This document shows, in pieces, positions 7,156 through 61,607 of a stretch of DNA of 64,000 nt. Within the stretch, counting starts at the first letter, position 1. The number at the start of each line of letters is the position of its first letter. This DNA comes from Cutibacterium acnes (GTDB lineage Bacteria; Actinomycetota; Actinomycetes; Propionibacteriales; Propionibacteriaceae), in NCBI RefSeq assembly GCF_003030305.1, contig NZ_CP023676.1:806001-870000 (forward strand), given 5' to 3'. The position numbers and the translations under genes were made by a program. The notes below the pieces were generated by a model that saw only the letters and a program-made list of their open reading frames with translations, was not told where the DNA came from and searched no databases.

Positions 7156-7190
7156 GAAATTGCCTCGATCGTGGAGCAAGGAGGTGCCCG

Positions 7191-7619: not shown

Positions 7620-7761
7620 TCTCGCGGTCCGCGGGTCCGGGCCGACCGGGCCCCCTGACACAACTTCCCCTGTGCCAGGTGGTTCAGCCGGAACGGAACC
7701 TCGGATCACGGGTCGTCGACACCGGTCGAAGACGTTGCTGGCATATCATGCCGGGGAAGGG

Positions 7762-40345: not shown

Positions 40346-40364
40346 TTAGGCAAGGCTAACCTTA
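40346..40364 (+). promoter_or_regulatory. DtxR/IdeR iron-box-like operator
   Basis: TTAGGCAAGGCTAACCTTA matches the DtxR/IdeR consensus TTAGGTTAGCCTAACCTAA at 15 of 19 positions with the right dyad. It lies 46 bases upstream of the htaA start, overlapping the likely promoter region (TTGCGC at 40333). Iron repression of the haem operon is inferred from established DtxR biology. Confidence 0.75.
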
Positions 40365-40410
40365 TAGGTGGCCCAAGGTGGGCCGTATTCACAACCGAAG
40401 GGGACGTCTC

Positions 40411-41814: not shown

Positions 41815-41858
41815 TCCGTTCGTCGAACGCCGTCATTTCGCACGCAGACAAAGTGCCG

Positions 41859-41890
41859 GCAGGGATGGGGGCACTCGTCCCCATCCCTGC
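41859..41890 (+). terminator. Intercistronic hairpin between htaA and hmuT
   Basis: A perfect 12-bp stem GCAGGGATGGGG / CCCCATCCCTGC with an 8-base loop, 45 bases after htaA and 37 before hmuT. No U-tract follows (TACATTCCC), so it is more likely a partial terminator or mRNA-stabilising element that sets the htaA to hmuTUV ratio than a complete stop. Confidence 0.6.
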
Positions 41891-41926
41891 TACATTCCCG
41901 AAAACGAGTTTCGAAAGTTGAGAACC

Positions 41927-44097: not shown

Positions 44098-44873
44098 TCC
44101 GTGCGCGGGACGTGACCTTTTGTTACGGGGAGCGAAGGATCCTCGACGGGATCAACCTCGACGTCCAAGCAGGTGAATTCGTCGGTTTGCTGGGGCCGAA
44201 CGGCGCGGGTAAATCCACCCTACTGAGCGTGCTCTGTGGTGACCTTGAGGGTTGGCAGGGAACGGTTGAACTCGACGGAGCGCCTCTTCAAAAGCTCTCT
44301 CGTCCCCAGCTGGCGCTGCGTCGCTCAGTGATGCCCCAGTTCAGCGAGTTCCCTTTCTCCTATCTCGTTCACGACATTGTCATGATGGGACGATCCCCAC
44401 ATCCACGCGGCCCTGACGACGCCGTCATCGTCGATAGGGCGATGGAACGTACCGAGGTCACTGACCTTGTCGATCGAGAGGTGACGCGTCTGTCAGGTGG
44501 CGAACGCGCCCGGGTGACGTTGGCCAGGGTGCTTGCCCAGCAGGCACCCTGTGTTTTCCTTGATGAGCCGACTGCTGCCCTCGATATCTGTCATCAGGAA
44601 CGCACTATGGCGATCTGTCACGAATTGGCCGATGCGGGGTGCGCGGTCGTTGCCGTCATGCACGACGTGGCGTTGGCGGCAGCGTGCTGCGACCGGATCG
44701 CTTTGTTGTCCGGAGGAAAAATACTGGCCGTGGGGCCAGCTGTGGAGGTGCTCACCGAGGATAATCTCACCACGGTGTATCGATGGCCCATCGAGGTCGT
44801 CGCCTTGCCGGGAGGGGAGCTCGTCATCCTGCCGAGACGCGCTCGAACCGCCAGCCACGATGAGCGAAGGTAG
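44094..44873 (+). CDS. hmuV: Haemin ABC transporter ATP-binding protein
   Basis: A 259-residue ABC ATPase: Walker A GPNGAGKSTLL, Q-loop VMPQFSEF, signature LSGGERARVTLAR, Walker B CVFLDEPTAALD, H-loop VMHDVALA. It belongs with HmuTU. The MPQFSEFPFSYLVHDIVMMGRSPH stretch is typical of HmuV rather than generic FepC proteins. Two bases separate its stop from the next ABC gene, so the two CydDC-like genes are very likely in the same operon. Confidence 0.95.
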   Translation: MIRARDVTFCYGERRILDGINLDVQAGEFVGLLGPNGAGKSTLLSVLCGDLEGWQGTVELDGAPLQKLSRPQLALRRSVMPQFSEFPFSYLVHDIVMMGRSPHPRGPDDAVIVDRAMERTEVTDLVDREVTRLSGGERARVTLARVLAQQAPCVFLDEPTAALDICHQERTMAICHELADAGCAVVAVMHDVALAAACCDRIALLSGGKILAVGPAVEVLTEDNLTTVYRWPIEVVALPGGELVILPRRARTASHDERR

Positions 44874-44875
44874 CC

Positions 44876-46606
44876 ATGTCGGGTTCAGTATCGGTGATGT
44901 CGCCACAGTCGGGTTCGCGAGCCCGACGTGTGGCTGCCGTTCATATTGTGGAGGTCGTCGCTACTTGCCTTTTCCTCGTCGCAGTAGGCCAAATTATCGG
45001 TGGTCGTTTCGAGGATTTCGCCCCGGCTCCTGGCTGGTACTGGGCGATGGGCATCGGTGGGGTGGTGGCGGCTGTTGCGGCTGGGGCTGCGGTGTCGATG
45101 TCGGGCCGTCACGCCCGTGCTGAGGAGGCAGCTCTGCACGCCAAGGTTCTCGATGTTCTTTACCGTCGATCCCTCACTGGCCCGCCTGCCGCAGACGAGG
45201 GGGAACGAGTCATTACCTTAGCTACCGATAATGTTGAGCGGGTCAGTGAGTATCGTCAAGTTTTTCTCCCTGACATCCTTGCGGCCCTGGCCACTCCGGT
45301 GTTGGTGTGTCTGGTCATCCTCGTCGGTTTGGACTGGTTCACCGGCCTGGTCGTGTTACTAGCCTGCCCCCTCATTCCGACGCTGATTGGTGGATTCGTC
45401 AAGCTGTTTCGCAAGCGATCGTCAGATTCTCGTCGTGAGCGTGCCCGCCTTACTGCTCGCTACTTGGATGCTCTGTCAAATCTCGTCCTCATCCGAATGC
45501 TGGGTGCGGGACAGCGAGTGGAGGACGATCTGCGTCGACGAGGTGAGACTAACCGCGGGACCATCATGAAGCTATTGGCTGGCAATCAGATCGTCATTGT
45601 TGTCGTTGATGGTCTGTTCTCCCTGCTCTTCATCGCTATGGCTGCGGGTTTGGCCACGACGAGGTGGCAGGGTGGCGATATTTCGGCGACTTCGGCGATT
45701 ACCATCGTGCTGCTGTCGGTGCTGCTGCTGGAACCGCTGCACCAGGTCGCTGCTTTCTTCTACATCGGTATGGGGGGTATCGCCTCTCAGAAGGCACTGA
45801 GAAAGTGGTTCGACGCGGCTCCGTCAGCGCTAATGACTTCGGATTCCGCATCCTCGACGCCGACACCGCAGCGGTCAGCTCATGTCCCTGTGCCAGAGGA
45901 CGGAACTATTTGGCTGCGTAACGTCAGCGTCGGATACGGTGAAACCGAGGTCCTGCACGGGGTCAGCCTCGATATTACCCACGGTGGTCGTACCGCCATC
46001 ATTGGCCGTTCTGGGGCTGGCAAGTCGACGTTGCTTTCTGTCCTTAGCGGAACTCTGCCTCCTAAGAGCGGGGAGGTCTATGTCAGTGGTCTCGACGCCT
46101 TAACAGCTGCACCGGGGGCAATCAGGAGTATTAGTGCTTCGGTGAACCAGCGCACCTGGCTCTTTGCGGGCACCGTGGCAGACAACCTTGCGATCGCGAA
46201 CCCGAACGCCACACGTGAGCAGATGTGGGATGCATTACGACGAGCTGGCGTGGCCGACGAAGTTGAGGCGATGCCGAAGGGTCTGGACTCCGATGTGGGG
46301 GAGCAAGGAAGATTGATGTCGGGTGGGCAGGCTCAACGGATCTCGTTAGCCAGGGCTTTCCTGTCAGGACGTAACATCCTGCTGCTTGATGAGCCGACGT
46401 CTCACGTCGATGTTGATTCCGAGCGCCGCATTATCGACGCTATCTCGCAGATTAGTGACAACACCACCGTCGTGATGGTGACACATCGTCGCCGGTTGTT
46501 GAGACTGGCCCACGACGTCCAGCGGGTCAGCGCAGGCACGCTCTTACCGGCTGACGATGTCGATTCCATCGAGGATGACCGAACTGAGACGGAGGACTGG
46601 GCATGA
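44876..46606 (+). CDS. ABC half-transporter, CydD-like, in haem operon
   Basis: A 576-residue exporter-type ABC protein: six-helix membrane domain (about residues 20-300) fused to an ATPase with GRSGAGKSTLLSVLSG, MSGGQAQRISLARAF and ILLLDEPTSHVD. It pairs with the next gene (ATGA overlap). The fold is like CydD, the thiol/haem transporter of the cydABCD cluster, but no cydAB genes are nearby. Being placed directly after hmuV suggests a role in moving haem, a haem breakdown product or a siderophore. Some exporter-fold pairs (IrtAB type) import siderophores, so direction is uncertain. Confidence 0.82.
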   Translation: MSGSVSVMSPQSGSRARRVAAVHIVEVVATCLFLVAVGQIIGGRFEDFAPAPGWYWAMGIGGVVAAVAAGAAVSMSGRHARAEEAALHAKVLDVLYRRSLTGPPAADEGERVITLATDNVERVSEYRQVFLPDILAALATPVLVCLVILVGLDWFTGLVVLLACPLIPTLIGGFVKLFRKRSSDSRRERARLTARYLDALSNLVLIRMLGAGQRVEDDLRRRGETNRGTIMKLLAGNQIVIVVVDGLFSLLFIAMAAGLATTRWQGGDISATSAITIVLLSVLLLEPLHQVAAFFYIGMGGIASQKALRKWFDAAPSALMTSDSASSTPTPQRSAHVPVPEDGTIWLRNVSVGYGETEVLHGVSLDITHGGRTAIIGRSGAGKSTLLSVLSGTLPPKSGEVYVSGLDALTAAPGAIRSISASVNQRTWLFAGTVADNLAIANPNATREQMWDALRRAGVADEVEAMPKGLDSDVGEQGRLMSGGQAQRISLARAFLSGRNILLLDEPTSHVDVDSERRIIDAISQISDNTTVVMVTHRRRLLRLAHDVQRVSAGTLLPADDVDSIEDDRTETEDWA

Positions 46607-48273
46607 CTGAACCATCGACCTGCCAAGTCATGAGGTGGCTCACCAGTATCACCCGTCCGGTGCACCCACCGCTGTACTTTTCGGCCCTCATGAGGGTTGT
46701 TCACCTGCTAGCCGACATCGGTCTGTTCGCGATGGCCGCCGGGGGAATGGTCGCTGTTGTTACCGCCGGCTGGTCAGCGTGGGCGTGGTTGGGATGGGTT
46801 GTCGGGCTGGCAGCTGTACAGGCCCTCGCCTACTATCTGGAGCAGTTCAGCGGGCACTATGTGGCTTTCAAAGCCCTGGAGATATTGCGCACCTACGCTT
46901 TCTCCCAGCTGTGGCCCAAGGCTCCGGCAGTTGTTTCGCACTCGCGTACTGGCGATGTGCTGGCCAGTCTTACTCGCGATGTCGAGCGCATCGAGGTGGT
47001 CTATACTCACACCTTCGCTCCCGTGGTGGCAGCCATCGTGGCCCCGCTTGTCGCTGTGGTTACGGGGGGAGTCCTATACGGATGGTTTGTGGTAGCCATT
47101 CCAGCCGTTATCCTCGTCGTCCTCATCGTGGCCCTGCTGGTCATCGGGACACGTGCCAGTCTGGATGCCACCCACGAGATGCTTGGGGTGAGACGCGAAC
47201 TGGCTGCTCACTTCACGGACTCGGTCTTCGGTGCCGCGGAGATCGTCGGGTATGGCCGTCAGTCCGACCGGATTATGCAAATGGCTCGTCTCGATGCGGA
47301 CATTGCTACTGGGTCCGCCAAAGCCCGCCGTTATGCCGCCATGCGTCGGGCCTCCTGTGTGGCCGCCACGATGGGGATCGTCGCTTGGGTGTCTGTTGTG
47401 GGTGTGAGTGGTGGTGTGGATGGTATCGGGGTGTGTGTTTTGGTGGTTGCGGGTTTAAGGGTTGTTGAGGGGTTGCGGGGTGTGGAGGATGCTGTCGGGT
47501 ATCTTGATCATTCGTTGGCAGCTGCGAGGCGTCTGTGGTGTCTGAGTTATTCACCGGTGGAAGTTGTTGATGGGCCGGAGGAATTGTGTTTGGATCATGC
47601 TCCGGCGCTGGAGTGGCGGGGTGTGAGTTTTTGTTATCGTGACGCGGATGGTGTGCCGGTGCCTGCGGTGCTTGAGGATGTCACTTTGGGTGTTCCGGCT
47701 GGGGGTCATGTCGTTGTGACGGGGGCGTCGGGTTCGGGTAAGACGACGTTGGTGAATTTGTTGTTGCGTCATCATGATCCGGATGTTGGGCAGGTTCTGG
47801 TGGATGGTGAGCCGGTGTCGTCGTTCACTCTTGATTCGTTGCGTAGGTGTGTTGGGGTGGTTTCGCAGCGGGTGGAGTTGTTGAATGCTTCTATTGCTGA
47901 CAATTTGAGGTTGGTAGTGCCTGCTGCTGGTGATGGTGAGTTGTGGCGTGTTCTTGGTGAGGTTGGTTTAGCTGATGAGGTGCGTGGTATGGAGGCTGGA
48001 TTGCGTACCGTTGTTGGGCCGGCTGGTACGAGGCTTTCGGGGGGTCAGGCTCAGCGGTTAACAGTGGCCAGGGTGATTCTGCAGCGGCCGAGGGTCCTTA
48101 TTCTTGATGAGTTTACTGCGTCTGTGGATCCTGATTTGGCAGCTGAGATTCGTGTGAATTTGGCGCGATGTTTGCCTGGGGTCACTGTGGTGGAGATTAG
48201 TCATGAATGCGATTGTGGTGGTGAGACTGTTGTGTTGGATCGTGGCAGGGTTGTGAAGCATCTGCGTCGGTAA
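46603..48273 (+). CDS. ABC half-transporter, CydC-like, in haem operon
   Basis: A 556-residue partner of the preceding ABC protein. Membrane domain about residues 25-300; ATPase domain with GASGSGKTTLVNLLL, LSGGQAQRLTVARV and VLILDEFTASVD. ATGA overlap with its partner. From about 47390 onward codon use changes abruptly to T-ending codons (GGT, GTT, TTG), unlike the first half of the same gene. A degenerate copy of 47941-48072 occurs at 62117-62249. The reading frame is intact here. Confidence 0.82.
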   Translation: MTEPSTCQVMRWLTSITRPVHPPLYFSALMRVVHLLADIGLFAMAAGGMVAVVTAGWSAWAWLGWVVGLAAVQALAYYLEQFSGHYVAFKALEILRTYAFSQLWPKAPAVVSHSRTGDVLASLTRDVERIEVVYTHTFAPVVAAIVAPLVAVVTGGVLYGWFVVAIPAVILVVLIVALLVIGTRASLDATHEMLGVRRELAAHFTDSVFGAAEIVGYGRQSDRIMQMARLDADIATGSAKARRYAAMRRASCVAATMGIVAWVSVVGVSGGVDGIGVCVLVVAGLRVVEGLRGVEDAVGYLDHSLAAARRLWCLSYSPVEVVDGPEELCLDHAPALEWRGVSFCYRDADGVPVPAVLEDVTLGVPAGGHVVVTGASGSGKTTLVNLLLRHHDPDVGQVLVDGEPVSSFTLDSLRRCVGVVSQRVELLNASIADNLRLVVPAAGDGELWRVLGEVGLADEVRGMEAGLRTVVGPAGTRLSGGQAQRLTVARVILQRPRVLILDEFTASVDPDLAAEIRVNLARCLPGVTVVEISHECDCGGETVVLDRGRVVKHLRR

Positions 48274-49527: not shown

Positions 49528-51099
49528 ATGGTGAGTATTGTTAGCCGTGCTACTCGTGTAGTTCGGCTTGCGGCTGTGGCTGCGGTGGCTGCCAGTGTAG
49601 GTATGAGTACCGGGCCAGCTTGGGCTGATCAACCTGATGCAGACCAGAGTCAACGGCAGGTTGCATTGGGTGCAATGCAATGGACCATAAATTCTCATTT
49701 TTTGAATGCTCTAAAAATGATGATGCATGGATCGTGGTCCACGAGTAGCGGCGCAAGTTGGAATGGCAAAGCATTTTCATTCCCGGTGAGCAAAGGCAGC
49801 TTGAGTTCCACTGCGCAGAAGGCAGATGTGAAGTACTCCGGTTCTGTTCATTTTACCGGTGTTGGCGGAAGAATGGATCTTACTCTCGCCGACCCTGAGA
49901 TTGTCGTTAACAATGGCGATGATCATGTGATTATGTCCGTGAAGTCCAAGACTATGGTCGGGCAGTCGGTTGATTATGGCCGTATAACTTTCGTTGATAT
50001 GACCGGCTCTATTACGCAGGGTCAAAACGATGCAGCTCAGGTTGTGGGAACCAATGTCAAGCTGAATAGCCAAGCTGTCGATGCATTCGCTGGTTTCTAT
50101 CAAGCTGGAAAGCCCATGGATGACATCGATTCGTCCTTGAAGCTTGGGCCTCAATCCTCTCGCCCGGAACCGACGGTGACTCCCAAGCCGAGTGTTACCC
50201 CTAAGCCGAGTGTTAAGCCAAAGCCGACGGTGGCTCCCAAGCCGAGTGTTAAACCAAAGCCGAGAGTGTCTCCTAAGCCCAGTGCTAAGCCGAAGCCGAC
50301 GGTGGCTCCCAAACCTGACCAAAGCACAATTATGGCGCCACAGTCGGATGCTGCGACGGAGGCTGCTGCTGGTGAGGCTCCGTCCGCGGGTGCTCACAAG
50401 ATTATCCGCAAGCAGGTGTGCACGGTCGTCCCTGGAGCGTCGAGGGCTACGTCACCTACCTCTACGCCAGCCAAGGTTGGCAAGGGCAGCATGAACTGGG
50501 GGGTTTCGACCTCATTCGTCAATGCTCTCAAGGGCCCGATGCAAGGCAAGTGGACGATGTCGGGGGGAGCCTCCGCTGATGGGACTCGGTTCAACTTCCC
50601 GTTCAGTGGGGGTAACTACGATAGGGCCACGAAGACGGGAAATCTCAATTTTTCTGGCGGTGTTCACTTTACGGGGGTGCATGGGCTCCTTGATCTATCG
50701 CTGAGTGATCCGTCCCTTTCTTTGAAGAATGGGAAAGGCGTTATGAAGCTTACCTTGAATGCTGGAGGAATGGCACCCTTTAAAGGTAGGGTTGACTTTG
50801 CGAATGTTTCCGTTGTTCCATCCGGGTCTGGTTTTACTGCGACGTCTGTTGTTTTGACTGGGAACGGCGTACAGGTGTGGAATGGTTTCTATAAGAAGGG
50901 CCATTCAATGGATAACTTCTCTGTTTCGTTGGGGGACAAATCGGATTCCGCGTCCGCTGCGAAGCAAAATTCTGCTTCTCTGGTGAAAAAGAGCGCTGCG
51001 TCTCCGACGAAGCGGGAATGTCACGATGTCCTGGTTGATGCTAAGACGGGTCAGATCATATCCGGTAGCAATGGATCACTGCCTAATACTGGTGTGTGA
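49528..51099 (+). CDS. Two-domain HtaA-like secreted protein under B12 riboswitch
   Basis: A 523-residue exported protein: signal peptide about 1-33 (ending GPAWA), HtaA domain 1 about 45-215, Pro/Lys repeat linker 214-263, HtaA domain 2 about 320-470, and C-terminal LPNTG (518-522) followed by one Val and the stop, so the usual membrane anchor is missing. Compared with the haem-operon HtaA, the haem tyrosine is Ala61 and Ala333 and the GH histidine is Val112 and Val384 in the two domains, although surrounding motifs (FTGV.G..DL.L.DP, AFAGFY) are kept. Start: ATG 49528 has AAGGGAG eight bases upstream; GTG 49441, right after the riboswitch AGGAGG, would add 29 residues. Ligand probably not haem (inference). 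Confidence 0.87.
   Translation: MVSIVSRATRVVRLAAVAAVAASVGMSTGPAWADQPDADQSQRQVALGAMQWTINSHFLNALKMMMHGSWSTSSGASWNGKAFSFPVSKGSLSSTAQKADVKYSGSVHFTGVGGRMDLTLADPEIVVNNGDDHVIMSVKSKTMVGQSVDYGRITFVDMTGSITQGQNDAAQVVGTNVKLNSQAVDAFAGFYQAGKPMDDIDSSLKLGPQSSRPEPTVTPKPSVTPKPSVKPKPTVAPKPSVKPKPRVSPKPSAKPKPTVAPKPDQSTIMAPQSDAATEAAAGEAPSAGAHKIIRKQVCTVVPGASRATSPTSTPAKVGKGSMNWGVSTSFVNALKGPMQGKWTMSGGASADGTRFNFPFSGGNYDRATKTGNLNFSGGVHFTGVHGLLDLSLSDPSLSLKNGKGVMKLTLNAGGMAPFKGRVDFANVSVVPSGSGFTATSVVLTGNGVQVWNGFYKKGHSMDNFSVSLGDKSDSASAAKQNSASLVKKSAASPTKRECHDVLVDAKTGQIISGSNGSLPNTGV
50167..50316 (+). repeat. Coding repeat for Pro/Lys linker
   Basis: Short imperfect units of about 24 bases (AAGCCGAGTGTT / AAGCCGACGGTG alternating) encode (V/T)xPKPSVKPKPT-type repeats between the two HtaA domains. 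Such linkers span the cell wall. The unit count could vary between strains by slippage. Confidence 0.8.
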
Positions 51100-51135
51100 T
51101 GATTATTTGTTGATCAGCATGTGCTGACGACGGTG

Positions 51136-51165
51136 ATAGGTGGGGGTCATTTGGCTCCCACCTAT
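51136..51165 (+). terminator. Terminator after HtaA-like gene
   Basis: ATAGGTGGG / CCCACCTAT stem, extended by one G-U and one G-C pair, loop TCATTT-like, followed by TTGTTGTTG. It lies 37 bases after the stop codon and also faces the end of the convergent chelatase operon. Confidence 0.8.
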
Positions 51166-51273
51166 TTGTTGTTGCGTATGTGGTTAGTGCCGCGTAGTAG
51201 TTCTGGTAGCTGACGGCGTTTTCGACTCGCAGTGTCACATGTGGCTAGAATCGAGCATTAAGCACTGACCAGG

Positions 51274-51559: not shown

Positions 51560-52540
51560 CTATCCGCGTGGAGCCCGCGCGACGCCCGACGCATATTGTA
51601 ACCGATGATTGAGGACCAGGGGGGCGACTTTTTCGAGATCGTCCTGAATAATTCGGTCTCGTCCCGCCCACGCTGCTAAGGCTCTTGCGGCGTGAATGAT
51701 GGTGATGTCGCCTCGATGGCCGTCGATGTTGGAATCCAGACAGATCTGTACCGCTGTGGAAAGAATATTTTTCGGAATCTCGACGGATTGGACTAGGGTC
51801 ATGGCATTTTCGATGCGTTCGGCTAATCGTCTGCTATGCGAGGACCATTCTGTAATAAATCCATCCGGATCGTCTTCGAATGATAGTCGACGTTGTACGA
51901 TCTCCATCCGTACCTCGGGATCGGTCTCTCCCTGGACCGTAACGCACAGTCCGAACCGATCCAGCAATTGTGGACGTAGCTGGCCTTCTTCGGGATTCAT
52001 CGTTCCTACCAAGCTGAAACGGGATGGATGGATCACGCTCATGCCTTCCCGTTCAACGGTATTCACTCCCATAGCTGCAGAATCCAGCAAGATGTCGACG
52101 ATGTGATCGTCAAGAAGATTGACCTCATCGACGTACAGTATTCCTCGGTGTGCCGACGCTAGCAGGCCTGGCTGGAACCTTTGCTGCCCCCGGACTAAGG
52201 CTGTTTCTACGTCAAGTGTCCCGGCAACCCTGTCTTCGGTGACCCCAACCGGTAGCTCCACTACTGGAACTTGCCGAAGCTGTAGATTCGTGCAGCTTGG
52301 AACCCCTAAAGGATCTCCGTAGATATGTTGCTCATCAGCGCTTAGATGATAAACGTCGTCAACCTGAGAAATGGTAGGCATTATTTGCGCCATTCCTCTG
52401 ACGGCTGTTGATTTTGCTGTTCCCTTGTCTCCTTGGATGAGCACTCCTGATAAGCGTGGGTATATAGCGCACAGGATAAGACTAAGCTTCATCTCCTCCT
52501 GACCAACGATCGCTGCGAAAGGATAGATAGGTTTTTCCAT
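51560..52540 (-). CDS. ChlI/BchI-like chelatase ATPase subunit
   Basis: A 326-residue AAA+ protein of the magnesium/cobalt chelatase I-subunit family. Walker A GDKGTAKST (37-45), Walker B ILYVDEVNLLDD (about 134-145), sensor GTMNPEEGQLRPQLLDRFG and a C-terminal helical lid GHRGDITIIHAARALAA, all close to BchI. I subunits drive metal insertion together with the D and H/N subunits. It is the last gene of the seven-gene leftward operon and starts one base after chlD ends. Confidence 0.92.
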   Translation of the reverse strand: MEKPIYPFAAIVGQEEMKLSLILCAIYPRLSGVLIQGDKGTAKSTAVRGMAQIMPTISQVDDVYHLSADEQHIYGDPLGVPSCTNLQLRQVPVVELPVGVTEDRVAGTLDVETALVRGQQRFQPGLLASAHRGILYVDEVNLLDDHIVDILLDSAAMGVNTVEREGMSVIHPSRFSLVGTMNPEEGQLRPQLLDRFGLCVTVQGETDPEVRMEIVQRRLSFEDDPDGFITEWSSHSRRLAERIENAMTLVQSVEIPKNILSTAVQICLDSNIDGHRGDITIIHAARALAAWAGRDRIIQDDLEKVAPLVLNHRLQYASGVARAPRG

Positions 52541-52541
52541 G

Positions 52542-54344
52542 TCAATCTCTCTGAGAATAAGAAAGGGCTCGACTCGTGGATCGAATGAAAGGGATGAAGA
52601 CTCCGGATTGCAGATCGTCGATGGTCATGCGAGGCGCATGAAGAATTCCTGACAGTGCTTCGCAGTCCCTTTGATGGACTCGGTTGACGGAGGTATCTAC
52701 GATGATCCACGAGGTTCTTGTGTCGTCGGACAAAGTTTGTGCGACATCGAATGCCTGATTGGTGGCAGTTCGGTCCACCCGACCGTCAAGTCCAACGTTA
52801 CCGCCACCATCGGTCACCACGATGGCGACGGGGCGAAGGGTAGAATCCCGTCGCAACTCTGTCTCGATGAGTCTTCCAGCGCATGAGAGCCCTGATGCCA
52901 GCGGCGTCTGTCCGCCGACTGCCATCGTCGTCAGAAGCCGCTGTGCACGCTCGATACTCGATGTCGCAGGCACGATCACTCGAGCGTTATTGCCAGAGAA
53001 CGTGATCACGGCGACACGATCACGTTTTACGTAGGCATCTTGGAGCAGGCCGATGACTGCTGCCTTGCTGGCTGCCATTCGGCCCCGGGCACCCATGGAT
53101 CCACTTGCGTCGACGATGAATACGACGAGAGTCGACGTCCGACTCTCGCGCACCTTGCGTCTCCAGTCAGAGCGTTTGACGACTACGGACAACCCATCAA
53201 GTCCCTCTCCTGATGCACGCCGCGCTCTTTGGTGAGGGGCAGCTGCTCGTAGGGTAGCCGGCAGTGACAGATCGACCGGTTGCCTAGTCGGTTGTGAGCT
53301 GATCACATGGCCCCGAAGATCTGCTGATCGGGTGACCATTCGGCGTCCCCGGGCCCGACGTTGAGTTCGGTCATATGCTGCGGGGGTGGATGTGAGTACG
53401 TTAAAGGTTTCCTCAGGGGCGATGACCCTCGGGGAAGCTGCCGTGCTGTCGTCGTGGCCTTTTTCATCCAGTTGCTCGTTTCCGTCGTGCGGCGATGAGG
53501 GGCCACTGTGGGAGTGAGCATCATTGAGATCCGGTGAGGGGGCCTGAGACGAAGACAAGTTTCGCCGGCGGTGTCTCAGGACGAGTTCGGCCACCGCAGT
53601 GACGTCTTCGACGACGACATTATTGTCTCCCCGCCACGCCGCGTAAGCAGTCGCCGATCGAGCCAAACCAAGATCGGCGCGCTGTCCGGGAGCATGCGCT
53701 TGTGTCAAGAGCTCTGTGAACTTGTTTCGTGCAGCGTCGGTCCATTCCAGGTCAGGAAGTTTGTTTCGAGCAGCACAAATACGGTTCACGACCTCATTGG
53801 TGGCATCTGTGCATGTAGTAATGAAGGAGTCTGGGCCATCGTCGAACGTAAGGCGATGATTGACAATGAGCTCCCGGTCCTTTGGGTTACGACAGGGAAC
53901 AGTCACGGCGCACAGACCAAAGCGGTCGAGGAGCTGGGGATGGACGGTGTCCGCCCCTACGGCCATTGTTGCTATGAGGGGTAGGTCTTCGGGCCGACCA
54001 ATGAGGGCAGCTGTTACGGCGTCGTCAAAGAGGTTAACATCGTCGGCGCACAGAGCCTGGGCTTCGGTGAGGAGGCCGACATGATCACGGCGCCGTCCGC
54101 TGGCTAATGCAGCCTCGAGATCCATGCTGCCGATCAATCGGTCCACGGTAGTGCCTGCCGTGACGTCACGGACGACGATCCCTGGAACGAGGTCAACGAA
54201 GGACCTCGCACAGGTTGATTTGGCCGTGCCGAGAGGGCCTGTGATGAGGACCCCACCGATCATTGGATCGATGGCTAGCAGCGTGAGGGCCAATCTGGGT
54301 TCAGACTGGCCCACGATCGCTACAAAGGGAAAATGACGAGGCAT
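52542..54344 (-). CDS. ChlD/BchD-like chelatase subunit (AAA + VWA)
   Basis: A 600-residue subunit with three parts: AAA+ domain (Walker A GPLGTAKST at 36-44; Walker B weakened to ALCADDVNLFDD, Asp in place of Glu), an acidic/Ser/His linker (about 262-305) and a C-terminal VWA domain with MIDAS motif DASGS at 412-416, GGQTPLASGL and VTDGGGNVG. This is the standard D-subunit architecture with a likely inactive ATPase site. The real start is ATG 54344, sharing a base with the lipoprotein stop (TGATG). Confidence 0.92.
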   Translation of the reverse strand: MPRHFPFVAIVGQSEPRLALTLLAIDPMIGGVLITGPLGTAKSTCARSFVDLVPGIVVRDVTAGTTVDRLIGSMDLEAALASGRRRDHVGLLTEAQALCADDVNLFDDAVTAALIGRPEDLPLIATMAVGADTVHPQLLDRFGLCAVTVPCRNPKDRELIVNHRLTFDDGPDSFITTCTDATNEVVNRICAARNKLPDLEWTDAARNKFTELLTQAHAPGQRADLGLARSATAYAAWRGDNNVVVEDVTAVAELVLRHRRRNLSSSQAPSPDLNDAHSHSGPSSPHDGNEQLDEKGHDDSTAASPRVIAPEETFNVLTSTPAAYDRTQRRARGRRMVTRSADLRGHVISSQPTRQPVDLSLPATLRAAAPHQRARRASGEGLDGLSVVVKRSDWRRKVRESRTSTLVVFIVDASGSMGARGRMAASKAAVIGLLQDAYVKRDRVAVITFSGNNARVIVPATSSIERAQRLLTTMAVGGQTPLASGLSCAGRLIETELRRDSTLRPVAIVVTDGGGNVGLDGRVDRTATNQAFDVAQTLSDDTRTSWIIVDTSVNRVHQRDCEALSGILHAPRMTIDDLQSGVFIPFIRSTSRALSYSQRD

Positions 54345-54877
54345 CAAGCGGAAGCAGCCTGCTTGATGGTCATTCCGTAACGATTCTTGAAGTATTTTTC
54401 GAGACGCTTTTCGGCATCGCTCGTTGAGTCTTGAGCTGGTTTCCAGAATCCCATCTGTTTTACTTGGGGGGTGATGTCGTTATGGTGGAAATCTTTGATC
54501 TTGGTCATCTTGTGCGTGGTTAAGGAGAATGTGTAGTCAAAGGCTTGACCCATAGCGGATACCCACTTGTGCCAAGAAAGCGTTTGCGCTTTCTCGTTGA
54601 ACATGTACCAATCCTTCATTGGTTTCTTGGTCTTGGGATCGACAGTCTGGAAAGTTACCTGCTGCTTGCCCTTGTCTACGGTGATAGCTAGTCCTGCCCC
54701 CTTGATGACCTTGGTCTTTACATCGAGATCTTTGGATACGTTTCCACTCGGTGTCATGGTGGCATCCGGGGCTGCGCTGGGAGTAACACGAGACAATCCC
54801 TGAGAGCTCTGTGAACAGCCCGTAAGGAGAAGCCCGAGTGCGCAGGTAAATGCTAAGTATGGAAGTGTTTTTGTCAT
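54344..54877 (-). CDS. Small lipoprotein of unknown function in chelatase operon
   Basis: A 177-residue lipoprotein. Signal peptide MTKTLPYLAFTCALGLLL ends in lipobox LTGC (Cys about residue 21). The rest is Lys/Asp-rich with aromatic residues (DWYMFNEKAQTLSWHKW, KMTKIKDFHHND). I recognise no domain. The FHHND and WHKW histidines could bind metal or a tetrapyrrole edge, but this is speculation. Start: ATG 54877 has AAAGGAGT upstream; the frame to 54916 would overlap cobN by four bases. Its location between the large and D chelatase subunits suggests an extracytoplasmic accessory role. Confidence 0.8.
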   Translation of the reverse strand: MTKTLPYLAFTCALGLLLTGCSQSSQGLSRVTPSAAPDATMTPSGNVSKDLDVKTKVIKGAGLAITVDKGKQQVTFQTVDPKTKKPMKDWYMFNEKAQTLSWHKWVSAMGQAFDYTFSLTTHKMTKIKDFHHNDITPQVKQMGFWKPAQDSTSDAEKRLEKYFKNRYGMTIKQAASA

Positions 54878-54912
54878 CAGTACTCCTTTCTCGGTTTTAT
54901 GAGACTGCCTCT

Positions 54913-57900
54913 TCATGGGTAGTCGATTTCTTGCGTTCCAGCTTCCAAACTGGAATCAAGCTTGAAAGTGAGGTCGTGAAGCTTGTCCAGGTGCTCGGCG
55001 CTAGCGTTCCACAGTGACCTGTCGTGTGCTTCGACCATGCGTTGGGCCATGCTGGCAAGGGAATGCGGATTTAATGTCGATAGCCTTTGCACCATCTCAG
55101 GATCATCGATGTAGGTGTCGCAGACCTCGTCGAACATCCAATCGTCGATCTGGTCTGTCGTAGCAGCTAGACCGACGAGATTGGTGACTCGTTTCTCGAT
55201 TTCAGTGACCCCACGGTGCCCGTGGGCAAGCATGGCTTCCATCCAGTCCTTGTTGAGGAGGCGAGTACGCAGCCCCTTGGCAGCTGCCCTTCCAACGGAA
55301 GTCGTGTACACCTCATCTTGGGTGGTATCGGTCACAAGGATCGGGATTGATGTACCTTTGGCGGCGCGAACTGAATTACCCAATCCCCCTAAGTATTCGA
55401 AATAGTGGTCGAGATCGGTAATCTCGTACTCGTTGGACGATCGAGTCTGCGACACGAGGTCGACATCTTTGAGCCGGGAGTCATAGAGACCGTCTGTATG
55501 GGAGCCGTGATCATAACGGGTGTAGACGTGGCCTGAAGCAGCTGTGAAGGCCGTGGCAAGGTCTTCGGGACTTTGCCATTGTCCAGAATCGACGATGTCG
55601 GTCAGCCCCGAACCGTATTGGCCTGGAGGTGGCCCGAAAATTCGCGCGTGTGCCAGAGCTTCGATTCGTTCTTCGGGTTCGCCGGATTGACGCATGGCTT
55701 GTGCCTGTTGACGCGTTCGGGCAGCGAGGGGATTGATGTCAGCTGGTTCGTCCAGGGCCGCCACCGCATGAAGAATGTCGTCTAACTCATCGATGAGATT
55801 GCTGAAGAGGTCGCGGAAAAACCCGCAGATCGTGACGACGACATCCACCCTTGGGCGTTCAAGTTCATTGCTTGGAATGATTTCCCAGTGCGGAGAGTTC
55901 GGACGTCGTGGTGTCAAAGACCGCACTCCTAAAAGGCTCAGGATTTGGGCGTAAGTTTCACCTTGGGTACGGGTGGTCTCCAATCCCCACAGCACGACGG
56001 CGATCGTGGTGGGATCAGCGCCGTCATGGCTGGCGCGGTAGGCAGAACAAACGTGGTTGGCGATGTCACGCCCTCGTCGCACTGCGATGGGGGTGGGTAC
56101 TCGCCGTGAGTCGAACTGGTACAGCGAATGCCCCGAGGGCAAGACTTCTGGATTACGTATGGGATCGCCACCTAAGCGTGCATCAACGTGACGTCCTTCG
56201 AGGGCGTGGAATAAACCTTCTATCTCGTCATTGTGTTGTAGCCGCGCGTACAGATTTCGTGCCCAAGACGCCAGGTACCCGACTCCCTGAGTGAGCGCCT
56301 CGTCTTCGGGGTTTTTGGGTTCCACAGATTTTTCGGGTAAAGATGTTTCGTTGGATGAGTCTGAAACCTCTCCCAGCACCTTGCCGACGACCTTGGCCTG
56401 CTCGCTAGGGGAGAGTGCGGGGGCTAGTTCACCGTCAAATGAACCGTGCTCGGCCATTCCGCGCACCATGAGTCGAGCCTCCTGCGGGGTATAAGCCTGT
56501 CCCCAGACGTGTAGACCCATGGGGACAAGCGAACGCTTGGTCCGTGCTAGCTCTACCTCGAGTTCATCGAGATCGGTCGGAAGATGTAGAGCTGTGGCGC
56601 GTCCGTGCACCTGTTCCAACAACTCGGCGCTGGTTTGGGGCATGAGGGTGACACTGCGTCGGTATTCGGAGATGAGATCGTCTAGTTCTGCCAACTCACC
56701 GTCGAGTCTTGTGGGTTGCATCACGGGAGGTTGATAACTCACGAGAACCGCGTGTGCGCGACGACGCGCAATCAGCCCCTCTGCAGCGTTTCCACAGTAA
56801 TAGATGTACACGTGGGGGATATCACCGATGAGCATGTCGGGGAAGCATTCCGCGCTGACCGCGTTCTCTTTACCTTGGAGGAATTCCAAGGTGCCGTGTG
56901 TTCCGACATGGATGATGACGTCTGGTTTCCAGATTTGGCTCAGCCATGTGTAGAAACCGGCGTACTGCGGGTGTGGGGGACGAGTGGTGTCGTGGGTGTC
57001 AGTGGTAGCCATCTTGACTGAGCCACGACCTGGTTGGATACCGACCAAGACGTTCCCGTAGTCGACTGCGGGGATGATGAAATCGCCCTCAGGAGTCGTC
57101 ATAGGGCAGTCGCTTGGGCTTGGGTGTGTTTCATACATACTTTGCCACGCACGGGGGTGCGGCAGATCTTGTTCGGCATCGGCGCGTAGGTAAGTTTTCG
57201 GCCGTACAGTCTGCGAATATTCAGGGGAGTTTACGGCTTGGGCCAGTAAGTCATTGAGAAGTTGTTGCCCACTAGGGGTCTTGGTCTGATAGCCGCGGTG
57301 CGACAGTTCGCGCATGATTGCCGCCATAGATTCGCTGACGTCCAGAAAGGCTCCGTTGAGGAGGTTCCCCTCTCCTGCAGGATAATCGTAGCCAATGAGT
57401 GCGATTCGTTTCTGAGGAGCCGGAGTTGTCGATAGTCTCAATTGGCCACGAACTCGTCGTGCAAATCTTTCAATTTGCTTTGGGATTGGCACGAGTACCG
57501 ATGTGACGACTCCCGTGGTCGTGTTTTGAGCTGGCTCAGTCATCGCCGCTATCGGTATCTCGGCCAGACAACCGTCCATTTCGGGTAACATGAGCATGAC
57601 CATGGCTTCACTCTGACCGAGGCCGTGTCGTGACTCGTTCCATTGTTTCTCGGTGTATCGGGAGAGTATGAGGGGATGCATAATCGGGGCATTGATCGAT
57701 TTGAGCATGGCCGTGCTGGAATCAACATCACCCCCCATCGGCCCCCCGCCAATGCGGAAGCCCTGCATGCTGATAATAAGTTTTGGTGCGGCTTCGCTCA
57801 GAAGTGTGCGCAGAGCCTCCAAGGATTCGCCACCGGCGGCCACGATGCTGATGGGCACAACCCAGCAGTCCTTACGTAACGAATCCATTAAGGCGCGTAC

Positions 57901-58746
57901 GACATCGTTACTGTCGTAGGGATATGTGAGGCCGCTGTAAAGAAGGACGACAGTGGGTCTTCCGTGTGGAGCGTCACATTCCTGGCGGTATTTTTCGACG
58001 GTGGAGAAGTGTCTACTAGGCCACGGTGCACCGACGCTCGCAGGGGCTAGAGCCTCGGGTGGTGTGGGCACAACGACCTCTGGGTGACCGCCGTCGAAAT
58101 GAAGCAGATGGCGAAGGAAAAAATCTGCTTGCGGTTCTCGCATCGAGTGGAAGGCTTTACCCAGCGCGGAAAATCTCTTCGCGTCGGCCATAAATTTTGG
58201 TGCGGTTCGCATCCCTTTCACTGTGGCATGTACACGATTTATCCCAGAGATTTCACCTCCAGAGTCTGTGGATGACCCCATTTCTGTGATGATAGGAATC
58301 ATTTTTTTGGCACTATTCAGTATGCCCTTAATGCTCTTTTGGGCTCCCGTGTTTCCGAGCATCGACTTCATGTCTGGCGGCATGTGTTTCATGTCAGCGT
58401 GGCTGTCAGTTTTTTCTATGGCATTGCGGGCTGTCGCCATGGAGAACGATCCTAATCTCACCTTGTCGATAAACTCGGCTCCCCAAGAAAGGACTGCCCC
58501 ATCAAAGTCGTCCAAAGTTAATCGTGTAGCCCGAATCCACTGGGGGTCACCACCCATGGCGTCAAGGACGACGATATCGCTGTCGTGAATAGCTCTTGTC
58601 AGTGCCTCAAGTTCTTCTGGAGTGGGCCTCGTGGTAGAGTTAAAGAAATGCAGTTCGAGAAGATCGTGGCTTGGATCAATGGTCTTGGCTGCTTCGGAAA
58701 CATGTTTCACGAGATCGGGGAACACAGTCAAGAACGTAATTTTCAT
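54913..58746 (-). CDS. cobN: CobN/BchH-like large chelatase subunit
   Basis: A 1277-residue protein of the CobN/BchH family, the subunit that binds the tetrapyrrole and the metal ion. Recognisable segments: IALIGYDYPAGEGNLLNGAF, the active-site block HVGTHGTLEFLQGKENAVS, PHVYIYYCGNAAEGLIARRRAHA, and toward the end GHVYTRYDHGSHTDGLYD and DWMEAMLAHGHRGVTEIEKRV. The Co or Mg preference cannot be read from the motifs. Length is at the upper end of the family, with an extra segment around residues 125-220. Start: ATG 58746 overlaps the ABC ATPase stop (ATGA). Partnered here by ChlI and ChlD rather than CobST. Confidence 0.9.
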   Translation of the reverse strand: MKITFLTVFPDLVKHVSEAAKTIDPSHDLLELHFFNSTTRPTPEELEALTRAIHDSDIVVLDAMGGDPQWIRATRLTLDDFDGAVLSWGAEFIDKVRLGSFSMATARNAIEKTDSHADMKHMPPDMKSMLGNTGAQKSIKGILNSAKKMIPIITEMGSSTDSGGEISGINRVHATVKGMRTAPKFMADAKRFSALGKAFHSMREPQADFFLRHLLHFDGGHPEVVVPTPPEALAPASVGAPWPSRHFSTVEKYRQECDAPHGRPTVVLLYSGLTYPYDSNDVVRALMDSLRKDCWVVPISIVAAGGESLEALRTLLSEAAPKLIISMQGFRIGGGPMGGDVDSSTAMLKSINAPIMHPLILSRYTEKQWNESRHGLGQSEAMVMLMLPEMDGCLAEIPIAAMTEPAQNTTTGVVTSVLVPIPKQIERFARRVRGQLRLSTTPAPQKRIALIGYDYPAGEGNLLNGAFLDVSESMAAIMRELSHRGYQTKTPSGQQLLNDLLAQAVNSPEYSQTVRPKTYLRADAEQDLPHPRAWQSMYETHPSPSDCPMTTPEGDFIIPAVDYGNVLVGIQPGRGSVKMATTDTHDTTRPPHPQYAGFYTWLSQIWKPDVIIHVGTHGTLEFLQGKENAVSAECFPDMLIGDIPHVYIYYCGNAAEGLIARRRAHAVLVSYQPPVMQPTRLDGELAELDDLISEYRRSVTLMPQTSAELLEQVHGRATALHLPTDLDELEVELARTKRSLVPMGLHVWGQAYTPQEARLMVRGMAEHGSFDGELAPALSPSEQAKVVGKVLGEVSDSSNETSLPEKSVEPKNPEDEALTQGVGYLASWARNLYARLQHNDEIEGLFHALEGRHVDARLGGDPIRNPEVLPSGHSLYQFDSRRVPTPIAVRRGRDIANHVCSAYRASHDGADPTTIAVVLWGLETTRTQGETYAQILSLLGVRSLTPRRPNSPHWEIIPSNELERPRVDVVVTICGFFRDLFSNLIDELDDILHAVAALDEPADINPLAARTRQQAQAMRQSGEPEERIEALAHARIFGPPPGQYGSGLTDIVDSGQWQSPEDLATAFTAASGHVYTRYDHGSHTDGLYDSRLKDVDLVSQTRSSNEYEITDLDHYFEYLGGLGNSVRAAKGTSIPILVTDTTQDEVYTTSVGRAAAKGLRTRLLNKDWMEAMLAHGHRGVTEIEKRVTNLVGLAATTDQIDDWMFDEVCDTYIDDPEMVQRLSTLNPHSLASMAQRMVEAHDRSLWNASAEHLDKLHDLTFKLDSSLEAGTQEIDYP

Positions 58747-59552
58747 CGTGCTTCCTTCAAGGGGCGACGTGGTTGGATGACTGGGAGCTTGCCTTGGGGA
58801 TCCGTCGTAATCCACGCTTCGATGTCGAAGTTCTCTTCGATGGGCCCGGAGGATAGCGCGTCAGGTGGTCCTTCGAGTGTCAGCTGGCCATTTTTAAGAA
58901 TGGCGCATCTGTCGCAATAGCGGGCGGCTTGAGTGAGGTCATGCATGACGGCTATGACGGTGATTCCCCGTTCCTGGTTCAGCGATCGAACAAGATCGAG
59001 GACTCGCAGTTGATGGGTGACATCTAGATAGGTTGTGGGCTCATCGAGGATAAGGACAGTGGGTTCCTGTGCCAGGGCCGCCGCCAGCCACACTTTCTGT
59101 CGCTCTCCGCCTGAAAGAGTGGTGACGCGTCGATCGGCGAAGCACGTGACATCGGCCAGCTCCATTGCTTGTTCCACATGGTTGTCGGCGCTGGTGTCCC
59201 TTATCTGCCACCACGGTGTGTGGGCATATCTCCCGTAGCCAACGAGGTGACGTACGGTGAGGTCAGAGGGAGCGGTCGCGCTCTGCCAGACGATCGCAAT
59301 ACGACGCGCGATACAGGATGCGGACATCGTGGATAGATCCGTTCCATCGAATTTGACGCTCCCTGACTCGGGGGAGAGGGCTCCGCATAACGTGCGTACC
59401 AGGGTGGTCTTCCCAGAACCGTTGGGGCCAAGTATGGCGTGCATAACTCCCGCCTGGAATGATACGGAGACGTCATTGAGAATCTTGTGATTGCCCAAGG
59501 TGACGTTCAAGTGGGAGCCGGAAAGTATAGGTGTTTCCATGATATTTCCCAT
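58743..59552 (-). CDS. ABC transporter ATP-binding protein (BtuD/FecE type)
   Basis: About 269 residues: Walker A GPNGSGKTTLVRTLCG, Q-loop VWQSATAP, signature LSGGERQKVWLAAAL, Walker B VLILDEPTTYLDVTHQ, H-loop VMHDLTQAARYCD. The family serves B12, haem, siderophore or cobalt-corrinoid import with FecCD permeases. ATG at 59552 lies one base after the permease stop; ATG 59540 is a close alternative. It couples by ATGA to cobN. Confidence 0.92.
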   Translation of the reverse strand: MGNIMETPILSGSHLNVTLGNHKILNDVSVSFQAGVMHAILGPNGSGKTTLVRTLCGALSPESGSVKFDGTDLSTMSASCIARRIAIVWQSATAPSDLTVRHLVGYGRYAHTPWWQIRDTSADNHVEQAMELADVTCFADRRVTTLSGGERQKVWLAAALAQEPTVLILDEPTTYLDVTHQLRVLDLVRSLNQERGITVIAVMHDLTQAARYCDRCAILKNGQLTLEGPPDALSSGPIEENFDIEAWITTDPQGKLPVIQPRRPLKEAR

Positions 59553-59553
59553 C

Positions 59554-60597
59554 TCACAATGTCTTTCTGAGGAGGAAAAGAAAGAAGGGAACCCCCAGTG
59601 CTGTGAGCATGATGCCAACCGGTATCTCGAAAGGATCGAAGATGACCCGACTGCATGTGTCGCTCAGCATAACTAATGCAGCTCCGGCGAGCACACACGC
59701 TGGAACCAGGATGACGTGGCGATTTCCGACGATCAGCCGCATGATGTGCGGCACGATGAGACCGACGAACCCGAGCAACCCGATGGCGCTGACTGTGCTG
59801 GCGGCTAGGAGGGCCGCCACGGCAGTGAGGACAAGGCGATTCGCTTGAACGTTCATTCCCATGCCTTGTGCAACTTGATCACCCAGAGTGATGATGTCGA
59901 GTCTGCGGGACAGCACAACGGCGGCAATGATCCCTACCACGGTATATGGCCAGATGAGGGACACCTCGGCCCAACTGCGCATGGCGAGGCTGCCATTCAT
60001 GAACATGAGAGCGCCTTGCACATTGTCGGCCATAAGTACCATGACAGCGGAGATCCCTGCGCCGCACAGCGCTGAGACGGCAACCCCGGAAAGGATGATT
60101 CGCAGTGGTTGAACGCCACCCCTCCATGCGAGTGCATAGATTGCCATGGCTGCCAACATCGCACCGATGAACGCCATTACAGGTACAAGGTTTGCTCGTT
60201 CTGGGAAAATAAGCAGCGTGCCTATTCCTAGAAGCCCTGCGCCCGAGGAGACCCCGATGATGCTCGGATCGGCAAGGGGATTGCTCATCACGGCTTGAAG
60301 AATCACACCCGACGTTGCAAGGTTCATGCCGACCAGGGCAGCAAGGACGACCCTGGGGAATCTCACTCCCCATACCACCCTATGCCATTGGAAATCGGAC
60401 GGACCGAACAATCCTTTGACTACGTCAGAGGGTGACAACTGTATCGAACCGAACCCGATCCCTGTTATGACGCTGACGATCATGATCGCAACAAGGATGA
60501 CGAATACGATTGCCGTGAGGTGGTGCCTTCGGTGGCTGTTACTTGACGTTGTCTCCGTTGTCGATGTGAGTGTTTTTGTTTTGGCGGGTATTGTCAT
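59554..60597 (-). CDS. ABC transporter permease (BtuC/FecCD type)
   Basis: A 347-residue permease with about ten helices. FecCD motifs: WGVRFPRVVLAALVGMNLATSGVILQAVMSNPLADPSIIGVSSGAGLLG and LLGFVGLIVPHIMRLIVG (cited in pieces: WGVRFPRVVLAALVG, QAVMSNPLADPSIIGVSSGA, GLIVPHIMRLIVG). It is a paralogue of the HmuU permease in the haem operon but clearly different in sequence. ATGA overlap with the binding-protein gene upstream. Confidence 0.93.
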   Translation of the reverse strand: MTIPAKTKTLTSTTETTSSNSHRRHHLTAIVFVILVAIMIVSVITGIGFGSIQLSPSDVVKGLFGPSDFQWHRVVWGVRFPRVVLAALVGMNLATSGVILQAVMSNPLADPSIIGVSSGAGLLGIGTLLIFPERANLVPVMAFIGAMLAAMAIYALAWRGGVQPLRIILSGVAVSALCGAGISAVMVLMADNVQGALMFMNGSLAMRSWAEVSLIWPYTVVGIIAAVVLSRRLDIITLGDQVAQGMGMNVQANRLVLTAVAALLAASTVSAIGLLGFVGLIVPHIMRLIVGNRHVILVPACVLAGAALVMLSDTCSRVIFDPFEIPVGIMLTALGVPFFLFLLRKTL

Positions 60598-61607
60598 GGT
60601 TCAATGGGTTTTCCAAAGATTTCCGGATGCACAGAAGCTGCCATGTAAGCCACGGAATCTGGGTAGTTGGGGCCACCGTTGAACAGGAAGTATTGTTGAG
60701 GCAGGTAAATGATTTTCTTTTTTCGTACGGCATCCACTGCCTGCCAGGCTGGGTTGCTGGTCAATTCTCTGTTCACTATTTGCCGGGCTAGTGCGTTGTT
60801 CTGTACCATTGAGGTGACCATGATGATATCGGGCTGTTGCTGAGTTATTTTCTCGACACTGAGCGTGGCAGTTTCGGCATTTGGGTCATCTGGAATTGCC
60901 GACGAAGCGATGTTCTTCAACTTGAGAAGTTTGGCCATTGATCCGGCGATGCTGTTGTTTAACTTTAGTGATATTGACGTGGCTGTTGCGAACAGAATAG
61001 CGACCCGTTTGCCGTCTGCTGGCATCTTGTTAACGGTGGACTTGACCTGTGCGGAAATTTGAGAGGAACGCTTTTTGGCTTCTTTGGTGTGGCTGAGTAC
61101 TTTACCGAGGGTTTGATAAGTTTGGAGAACCTCATCCAGTGACCTCGTTTTGATGTTCAACACAGGAATTCCTTGAGAAGAAAGTTTGTCTGTTACGTTC
61201 TGGCTTACGGCTCCAGGTGCGATGACGAGGTCTGGGTTTGTAGCAAGTATTCGTTCTAAATTGACAGCATATATCATGCCGACCTTGGGGACCTTCTTTA
61301 TGGCTGCAGCATGGGCTGGTTGAAGTTTTTCATTTCCAGTTAAGGATGGCGTGCATGCCGCCGTGCCGCCCAAGTCATACCAAATGCTGAGTAGTGTCGC
61401 AGACAACAGGCATACTCGCTGTGGTCTTGTCTTAAAATCGACTTTATGGCCGAAGCTGTCGGTTACACTGAAGGACGTCTTTGCTTCTTCTGCTCTGGAT
61501 TCTCCTCCCTTTGAAGGATCTGAAGTGCCGCAGCCGACCATTGTCATGGCCAGTATTACAGCTATAGCTGCACTAATGCGCTTCCAGGCTGTTTTCTGTG
61601 TGTGCAA
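60594..61607 (-). CDS. ABC transporter substrate-binding lipoprotein (BtuF/FecB type)
   Basis: A 337-residue lipoprotein with lipobox MTMVGC (Cys about residue 26) and a FecB/BtuF fold: FSVTDSFGHKVDFKTRPQRVCLL, VNLERILATNPDLVIAPGAVS, and a C-terminal helix KKKIIYLPQQYFLFNGGPNYPDSV. The ligand is not evident; a corrinoid, haem or metallophore is possible. TTG start at 61607 with ACAGGAG nine bases upstream. First gene of the operon that also encodes the chelatase, which suggests that the imported ligand is what the chelatase acts on, or supplies its metal. Confidence 0.9.
   Translation of the reverse strand: MHTQKTAWKRISAAIAVILAMTMVGCGTSDPSKGGESRAEEAKTSFSVTDSFGHKVDFKTRPQRVCLLSATLLSIWYDLGGTAACTPSLTGNEKLQPAHAAAIKKVPKVGMIYAVNLERILATNPDLVIAPGAVSQNVTDKLSSQGIPVLNIKTRSLDEVLQTYQTLGKVLSHTKEAKKRSSQISAQVKSTVNKMPADGKRVAILFATATSISLKLNNSIAGSMAKLLKLKNIASSAIPDDPNAETATLSVEKITQQQPDIIMVTSMVQNNALARQIVNRELTSNPAWQAVDAVRKKKIIYLPQQYFLFNGGPNYPDSVAYMAASVHPEIFGKPIEP

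Follow-up and report, generated by a model that had tools for sequence, protein, structure and literature searches.

An importer-chelatase operon of Cutibacterium acnes with a CobN-like subunit, and its candidate role in B12-linked tetrapyrrole salvage

A seven-gene cassette that joins an ATP-binding cassette (ABC) importer to the subunits of a metal chelatase was found on the minus strand (51560-61607) of a 64,000-base stretch of the Cutibacterium acnes genome, hereafter the window (C1:806001-870000 of 2,495,001 bases). All seven open reading frames (ORFs) are open in C. acnes. The identities and coordinates that a sequence-only reading had given for seven leftward genes were confirmed by the ORFs and by Pfam matches (Table 1). 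Its description of tight packing was also correct, as adjacent ORFs either overlap or are separated by only a few bases, with a widest gap of 35 bases when the alternative LipX start at 54877 is used.

Table 1. Features of the operon and its surroundings (window coordinates) and the position of the second locus
Feature	Position	Strand	Remarks
Substrate-binding lipoprotein (SBP), operon gene 1	60594..61607	-	Pfam Peripla_BP_2; lipobox MVGC
FecCD-type permease	59554..60597	-	Pfam FecCD
ABC ATPase	58743..59618	-	Pfam ABC_tran; likely start ATG 59552
CobNx, CobN-like large chelatase subunit	54913..58815	-	Pfam CobN-Mg_chel, 920 bits
LipX, small lipoprotein	54344..54916	-	Occurs with the cassette in relatives
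ChlD-like subunit	52542..54347	-	Pfam VWA and AAA lid; MIDAS DASGS
ChlI-like AAA+ subunit	51560..52540	-	Pfam Mg_chelatase and AAA lid
HtaA-domain protein, two domains	49528..51099	+	Likely start ATG 49528; converges tail to tail with the operon
Adenosylcobalamin (AdoCbl) riboswitch-like element 5' of HtaA	49328..49479	+	RF01482, 38.2 bits; gathering score 50
Terminator-like hairpin between the convergent units	51135..51166		14-pair stem
Haem-type HtaA-HmuTUV locus, then two ABC-exporter-type genes	40378..48273	+	Contrast, outside the system
IdeR/DtxR-like box 5' of the haem-type locus	40346..40364		One mismatch to the consensus
Second importer-CobN-ChlID cluster	C1:113-130 kb (L003 7480-18933; L004 1-4910)		Same genome

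The likely start of CobNx is ATG 58746 (1277 amino acids), which overlaps the stop of the ATPase gene, and the protein carries the motifs IHVGTHG and TDLDHYFEYLGG. Walker A (GDKGTAKS) and Walker B (LYVDEVN) are intact in ChlI, as are Walker A and the metal ion-dependent adhesion site (MIDAS) in ChlD. LipX matched no Pfam or NCBIfam family. The top NCBIfam match of the SBP was IsdE, at 96.5 bits well under the cut-off of 298.65.

Relatives were collected by a profile search, from which 80 of 168 were retained, and 87 loci were examined. A complete cassette, defined as the importer trio (SBP, permease and ATPase) together with CobNx and either ChlI or ChlD, all on the same strand, was present in 31 of them (29 distinct; L088/L100 and L089/L098 come from the same genomes). 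The range of the cassette extends over Propionibacteriaceae, Clostridia, Bacilli and Chloroflexota, and the hosts among the relatives listed include Tissierella, Alkalibaculum, Vallitalea, Clostridium, Lutispora, Ruminococcus-type bacteria, Paenibacillus, Evansella and Chloroflexota. LipX accompanied the cassette in 20 of the 31 loci (19/29 distinct). ChlI or ChlD was encoded nearby in 31 of 32 loci with the importer trio and CobNx, the exception being L115, which favours an ATP-driven step. Since the gene order is kept across genera, the arrangement is not due to chance; judged by gene content and order, the operon is a real, conserved system common to many anaerobes. In one further locus (L154, Chitinivibrionales), a CobNx-clade chelatase with ChlI/ChlD was encoded within a cbi operon, and no importer lay in the available DNA.

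The link of this cassette to vitamin B12 came from its relatives. An Rfam scan was made of 32 loci; L111 and L154 stop too early for a verdict, and the 30 others include the close pairs L101/L104, L103/L109, L106/L122, L110/L140 and L116/L170. A cobalamin riboswitch at or above the gathering score was located at the operon head in 20 of the 30 loci, or in 17/27 when only complete cassettes are counted. The lowest-scoring was that of L126 (31.6 bits; gathering score, 31.5). The riboswitch lay immediately 5' of a cassette gene in 14 loci and 5' of an extra first gene in six, the extra gene encoding a NEAT protein (L102), CbiK (L113), a TonB receptor (L116, L170) or a further importer (L110, L147). 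In L102 (Alkalibaculum sporogenes, 3974-15809), a single chain comprised the cobalamin riboswitch, a NEAT gene, the cassette, an L107-sortase-like gene and a second NEAT gene, with CbiJ just upstream under a riboswitch of its own. In addition, CbiK was encoded in or near the cassette in five loci (L110, L113, L118, L119, L147), CobA accompanied the cassette in L118, and cbi genes ran on from it in L110. With riboswitches placed before so many relatives, the operon probably salvages B12-type rings. Of the earlier proposal of a salvage system importing a tetrapyrrole or corrin precursor, the import-coupled and B12-linked part is supported, and metal insertion over removal and the identity of the ring stay tentative.

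Genes of the anaerobic B12 route were found in the hosts of the cassette. Among 24 hosts (21 with a complete cassette), CbiD was present in 21 and CbiK or CbiX in all 24, with the reservation that CbiX-type matches in Bacilli may be siroheme enzymes. The C. acnes genome encodes CbiX; CbiK was not found in it. The cassette is therefore unneeded for ordinary cobalt insertion and represents an addition to B12 synthesis, in agreement with the earlier argument that a CobN-type enzyme should be unnecessary here. Cobalamin riboswitches 5' of C. acnes ABC transport genes have been reported (PMC9600381).

To place CobNx, a tree of 138 sequences was anchored with CobN from cob operons and BchH from bch operons. 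The CobNx side (84 rows) was split from the CobN and BchH side (54 rows) with a support of 0.999-1.00, and the BchH anchors L179 and L180 fell outside the CobNx clade. The C. acnes protein formed a cluster with those of five other Propionibacteriaceae (support 1.00), which joined the clostridial cassettes with weak support (0.15). The label "CobN-type" given to it from the sequence calls for correction, because CobNx forms a separate clade and does not cluster with cob-operon CobN. Profile scores were 703 bits for ChlH, 611 for CobN and 510 for HmuS; the tree contained no full-length HmuS.

The catalytic residues of the haem de-chelatase HmuS have been given as His1209 and Glu1212 (PMC12583661). 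The position of His1209, His1137 in CobNx, was occupied by His in 83/83 readable CobNx rows and in two BchH anchors, and by Asp in 43/43 CobN-group rows. Glu1140 of CobNx corresponds to HmuS Glu1212; the equivalent residue is Asp in BchH and mostly Gln in CobN. LDHYFEYLGG of CobNx aligned to LDHVYEFMGG of HmuS, so that both the catalytic His and the Glu of the DHxxE loop are present, and IHVGTHG contains the His of HFG(T/A)HG in HmuS. The full HmuS family motif LSLDHxxEFMGG was not matched, as TDLDHYFEYLGG deviates at several letters. Counted by letters, the loop agreed with BchH (DHYFDTLGG) at 7/9 and with HmuS (DHVYEFMGG) at 5/9. Because the search patterns included TDLDHY, that motif was fixed by selection in the loci so found; in an unselected test, 6/6 clade members (L029-L032, L057, L074) were positive. 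Judged from the alignment, the CobNx site belongs to the porphyrin-enzyme type: its His is that of BchH and HmuS, and one residue, Glu1140, is shared with HmuS only. ChlI/ChlD and the BchH-like loop would indicate insertion or exchange, and the HmuS-only Glu leaves room for removal. No membrane anchor (top mean hydropathy, 1.44 over 19 amino acids) or Met-rich insertion (at most 10 Met per 120 amino acids) was detected in CobNx.

The gene converging with the operon encodes an HtaA-domain protein behind the AdoCbl riboswitch-like element (E-values: 4.2e-4 in the window scan and 1.8e-5 for the genome); the counterpart of this element in Cutibacterium modestum matched RF00174 at 25.8 bits (gathering score, 31.5). 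The operon had been described as facing a B12-riboswitch HtaA gene. The convergent arrangement is real, but the riboswitch is sub-threshold and, since HtaA lies on the opposite strand, cannot directly control the operon. Terminator-like sites such as the hairpin between the two units were as a class not in excess in that region (10 compared with 10.4 in shuffles). The conserved Tyr of HtaA domains is a ligand of haem iron. In both domains of the riboswitch-linked HtaA, the Tyr and His of haem-type HtaA are replaced by Ala and Val, as they are in the C. modestum HtaA piece wherever readable; the HtaA at 40378, like 6jsa and 8smu, retains Tyr and His. Similarly, the haem motif of NEAT domains is YxxxY, which was absent from all three cassette-linked NEAT proteins checked (two in L102 and one in L107, both clostridial loci). 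The absence of the usual haem ligands from two families of surface domains linked to the cassette suggests a ligand other than ferric haem, and other binding modes are possible. The literature search returned no paper in which HtaA or NEAT is connected with cobalamin riboswitches. The riboswitch-linked HtaA ends in LPNTGV (window 51080-51099), with no membrane segment after this sortase-type motif, and its end is 98% identical to that of the C. modestum counterpart.

Taken together, these features point, at roughly even odds (probability about 0.5), to a B12-responsive salvage system for a corrinoid or closely related metal tetrapyrrole, with ATP-dependent insertion or exchange of the metal in the cytoplasm. 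In such a system, the SBP and the FecCD permease with its ATPase would carry the ring into the cytoplasm, where CobNx, powered by the ChlI/ChlD AAA+ motor, would insert or exchange the metal at the centre of the ring, with cobalt as the likeliest candidate. Outside the cell, capture or transfer of the ring may be assisted by LipX and, in C. acnes, by the riboswitch-linked HtaA. Here we infer the substrate, the metal, the direction of the reaction and the roles of LipX and HtaA. Of the two marks of a B12-riboswitch corrinoid salvage operon, the FecBCD/BtuFCD-type importer with chelatase subunits is present in C. acnes and the riboswitch at the operon head was not detected; a predicted role in B12-linked salvage is well supported for the cassette family and indirectly so for the C. 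acnes operon.

Several observations weigh against this reading. No riboswitch was detectable before the C. acnes operon, even with permissive filters, and none stood at the head of 10 of the 30 relatives (L086, L087, L098, L099, L105, L107, L120, L121, L123, L124), L098 having one on the other strand only and L107 one downstream. The SBP is about equally similar to siderophore, haem and B12 binders, HtaA and NEAT are families of haem proteins, and the active-site His of CobNx is of the kind found in the porphyrin enzymes BchH and HmuS, unlike that of CobN. Three of the genes are broken in C. modestum (see below). In addition, Bacteroides fragilis without the CobN-like proteins BtuS1 and BtuS2 is reported to grow poorly with haem as the sole iron source (PMC6460266).

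The closest known counterpart in gene set is operon-2 of Dehalobacter restrictus, which carries genes for a transporter, two CbiZ, CobN and Mg-chelatase behind a cobalamin riboswitch and which rose 346-fold in mRNA and 46-fold in protein in corrinoid starvation; it is syntenic with Acetobacterium woodii, and the authors assigned it to corrinoid transport and salvage (PMC4285132). Both operons unite a FepBCD/BtuCDE-type transporter, CobN and magnesium-chelatase subunits. Unlike operon-2, the C. acnes operon lacks a riboswitch and CbiZ and faces HtaA, and the likeness is one of gene set. For hmu-like operons of Bacteroides with cobalamin riboswitches, a role in haem use has also been considered unlikely (PMC10100974). 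The system, put forward earlier as the best candidate in the window for an undescribed one, is thus not wholly undescribed. BtuS, the CobN-like group of Rodionov 2003 set apart from CobN and ChlH and proposed to act in metalloporphyrin salvage (via PMC6460266), resembles CobNx in being CobN-like, but has been studied as membrane-anchored Bacteroides proteins. BchH/ChlH shares with CobNx the active-site His, most of the loop and a three-subunit design; it differs in the Asp at Glu1140, its bch neighbours and its place in the tree. Aerobic CobN (e.g., Mycobacterium tuberculosis CobN, 7c6o) is likewise a class I chelatase able to use ChlI/ChlD, but has Asp at the position of His1137 and in the majority of rows carries HxGKHG; its anchors stand in cob operons.

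HmuS of Bacteroidota shares with CobNx the superfamily, HxGTHG and the active-site His and Glu, which raises the possibility that CobNx-ChlID is itself an ATP-driven de-chelatase, stripping an imported corrinoid or tetrapyrrole for its cobalt or for its ring (siroheme to sirohydrochlorin, for use by CbiK/CbiX). Glu1140, common to the proven de-chelatase HmuS and absent from BchH and CobN, would fit this, as would CbiK at the five loci and the 21/24 CbiD-bearing hosts, to which the released cobalt or ring could be of use. The loop, however, is nearer to that of BchH, a metal inserter, and HmuS, membrane-anchored with a Met-rich insertion, is NADH-dependent, the hmu operon as described containing no ChlI/ChlD (PMC12583661, PMC13227078); such rings would also have to be available outside the cell. 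We consider simple removal unlikely. A related scheme, about as unlikely, is B12-run exchange or de-chelation: HtaA/NEAT proteins recruited from haem uptake and now devoid of iron-ligand residues would present a corrinoid or a cobalt-free or siroheme-like ring, CobNx-ChlID would strip or swap the metal in the cytoplasm at the expense of ATP, and CbiK/CbiX would reload cobalt. This would amount to a second route feeding B12 synthesis in anaerobes. It appears rather improbable that the operon is a cytoplasmic HmuS counterpart taking iron from imported haem anaerobically. HtaA, NEAT and TonB-receptor genes do adjoin the cassette or its relatives (receptors beside CobNx relatives in L155, L158, L173, L116 and L170, by Pfam for L116 and L155 and by similarity for the others), the His and Glu pair equals that of HmuS, IsdE is the best NCBIfam match of the SBP, though below the cut-off, and the BtuS mutants are impaired on haem iron. 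Against this stand the B12 riboswitches in relatives, the loss of the usual haem-ligand residues in the riboswitch-linked HtaA and three NEAT proteins, the lack of an anchor or Met-rich insertion in CobNx, and an IdeR-like box that is found at the neighbouring haem-type locus and not at the chelatase operon.

Least probable of all is an ordinary cobaltochelatase for de novo B12 synthesis. The cbi surroundings of L154 and of the L110 cassette would suit it, but CbiK or CbiX is already present in all 24 hosts examined and in C. acnes, CobNx forms a separate clade with His where CobN-group rows have Asp, and most members of the subclade to which the window's protein belongs come with an importer. 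A decaying acquired island with no present function in C. acnes also seems improbable. Among 147 Propionibacteriaceae genomes, matches of at least 45% identity occurred in that of the window, in C. modestum and in five more, one of which yielded fragments only. In favour of decay, CobNx was whole in the window genome alone among nine Cutibacterium genomes. The counterpart operon in C. modestum (L092/L097) is 93-99% identical, with CobNx, ChlD and HtaA each in two reading frames and the remaining cassette genes open; another Cutibacterium species (L093 9056-10309) keeps a LipX/CobN-tail remnant adjoining HtaA-HmuTUV, and no close cassette match was found in six of the nine. The G+C content of the seven genes is 0.48-0.585, compared with 0.585 for the window. 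Against decay, the seven C. acnes genes are open, the motor motifs are intact, and LipX, the SBP, the permease and the ATPase have a ratio of nonsynonymous to synonymous substitution rates (dN/dS) to C. modestum of 0.10-0.30; values for ChlI, ChlD and CobNx were set aside, as they combine overlapping or paralogous pieces.

The second cluster in the same genome consists of an AdoCbl-like riboswitch (43.7 bits, under the gathering score), two SBPs, FecCD, an ATPase, a radical S-adenosylmethionine (SAM) protein, CobN2, ChlD, ChlI and two ABC exporters, in this order. CobN2 (C1:120 kb; motif CTDFYNYYGG) was placed on the CobN side of the tree on a long branch, and most of the other Cutibacterium genomes that were searched contain it too. 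The chain of L120 places a radical-SAM-like gene and CobN2-type genes ahead of the cassette. As the second locus sits on the CobN side, importer, CobN and ChlID with a B12 link are present in two branches of the superfamily; this repeated design, like the induction of the D. restrictus operon, speaks for the salvage reading.

Most remaining sequences of the CobN/HmuS superfamily are described as not reliably annotatable (PMC12583661). For one group, the gene set, mode of regulation and host range can now be stated; with CobNx-type proteins filed as CobN or Mg-chelatase, a widespread B12-linked system is concealed by misleading names. The B12 metabolism of C. acnes is relevant to how cobamides are shared within the skin community (PMC9600381).

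The HtaA-HmuTUV part of the haem-type locus (40378-44873) is separate from the chelatase operon; its HmuTUV names and those of the exporters that follow rest on BLAST similarity and not on Pfam. Corynebacterial HtaA-HmuTUV uptake has the HtaA domain and a FecCD-type importer in common with the system studied here, but the riboswitch-linked HtaA has lost Tyr and His. HmuT of the haem-type locus keeps the His and Tyr-x-Arg described for CgHmuT (PMC4926363). One site within five mismatches of the IdeR consensus was found, compared with an average of 4.6 across 20 single-base shuffles; with no excess over shuffles, the box at 40346 is favoured by its single mismatch alone. Elsewhere in the window, an mraW RNA element was detected at 7616-7721 (66.7 bits).

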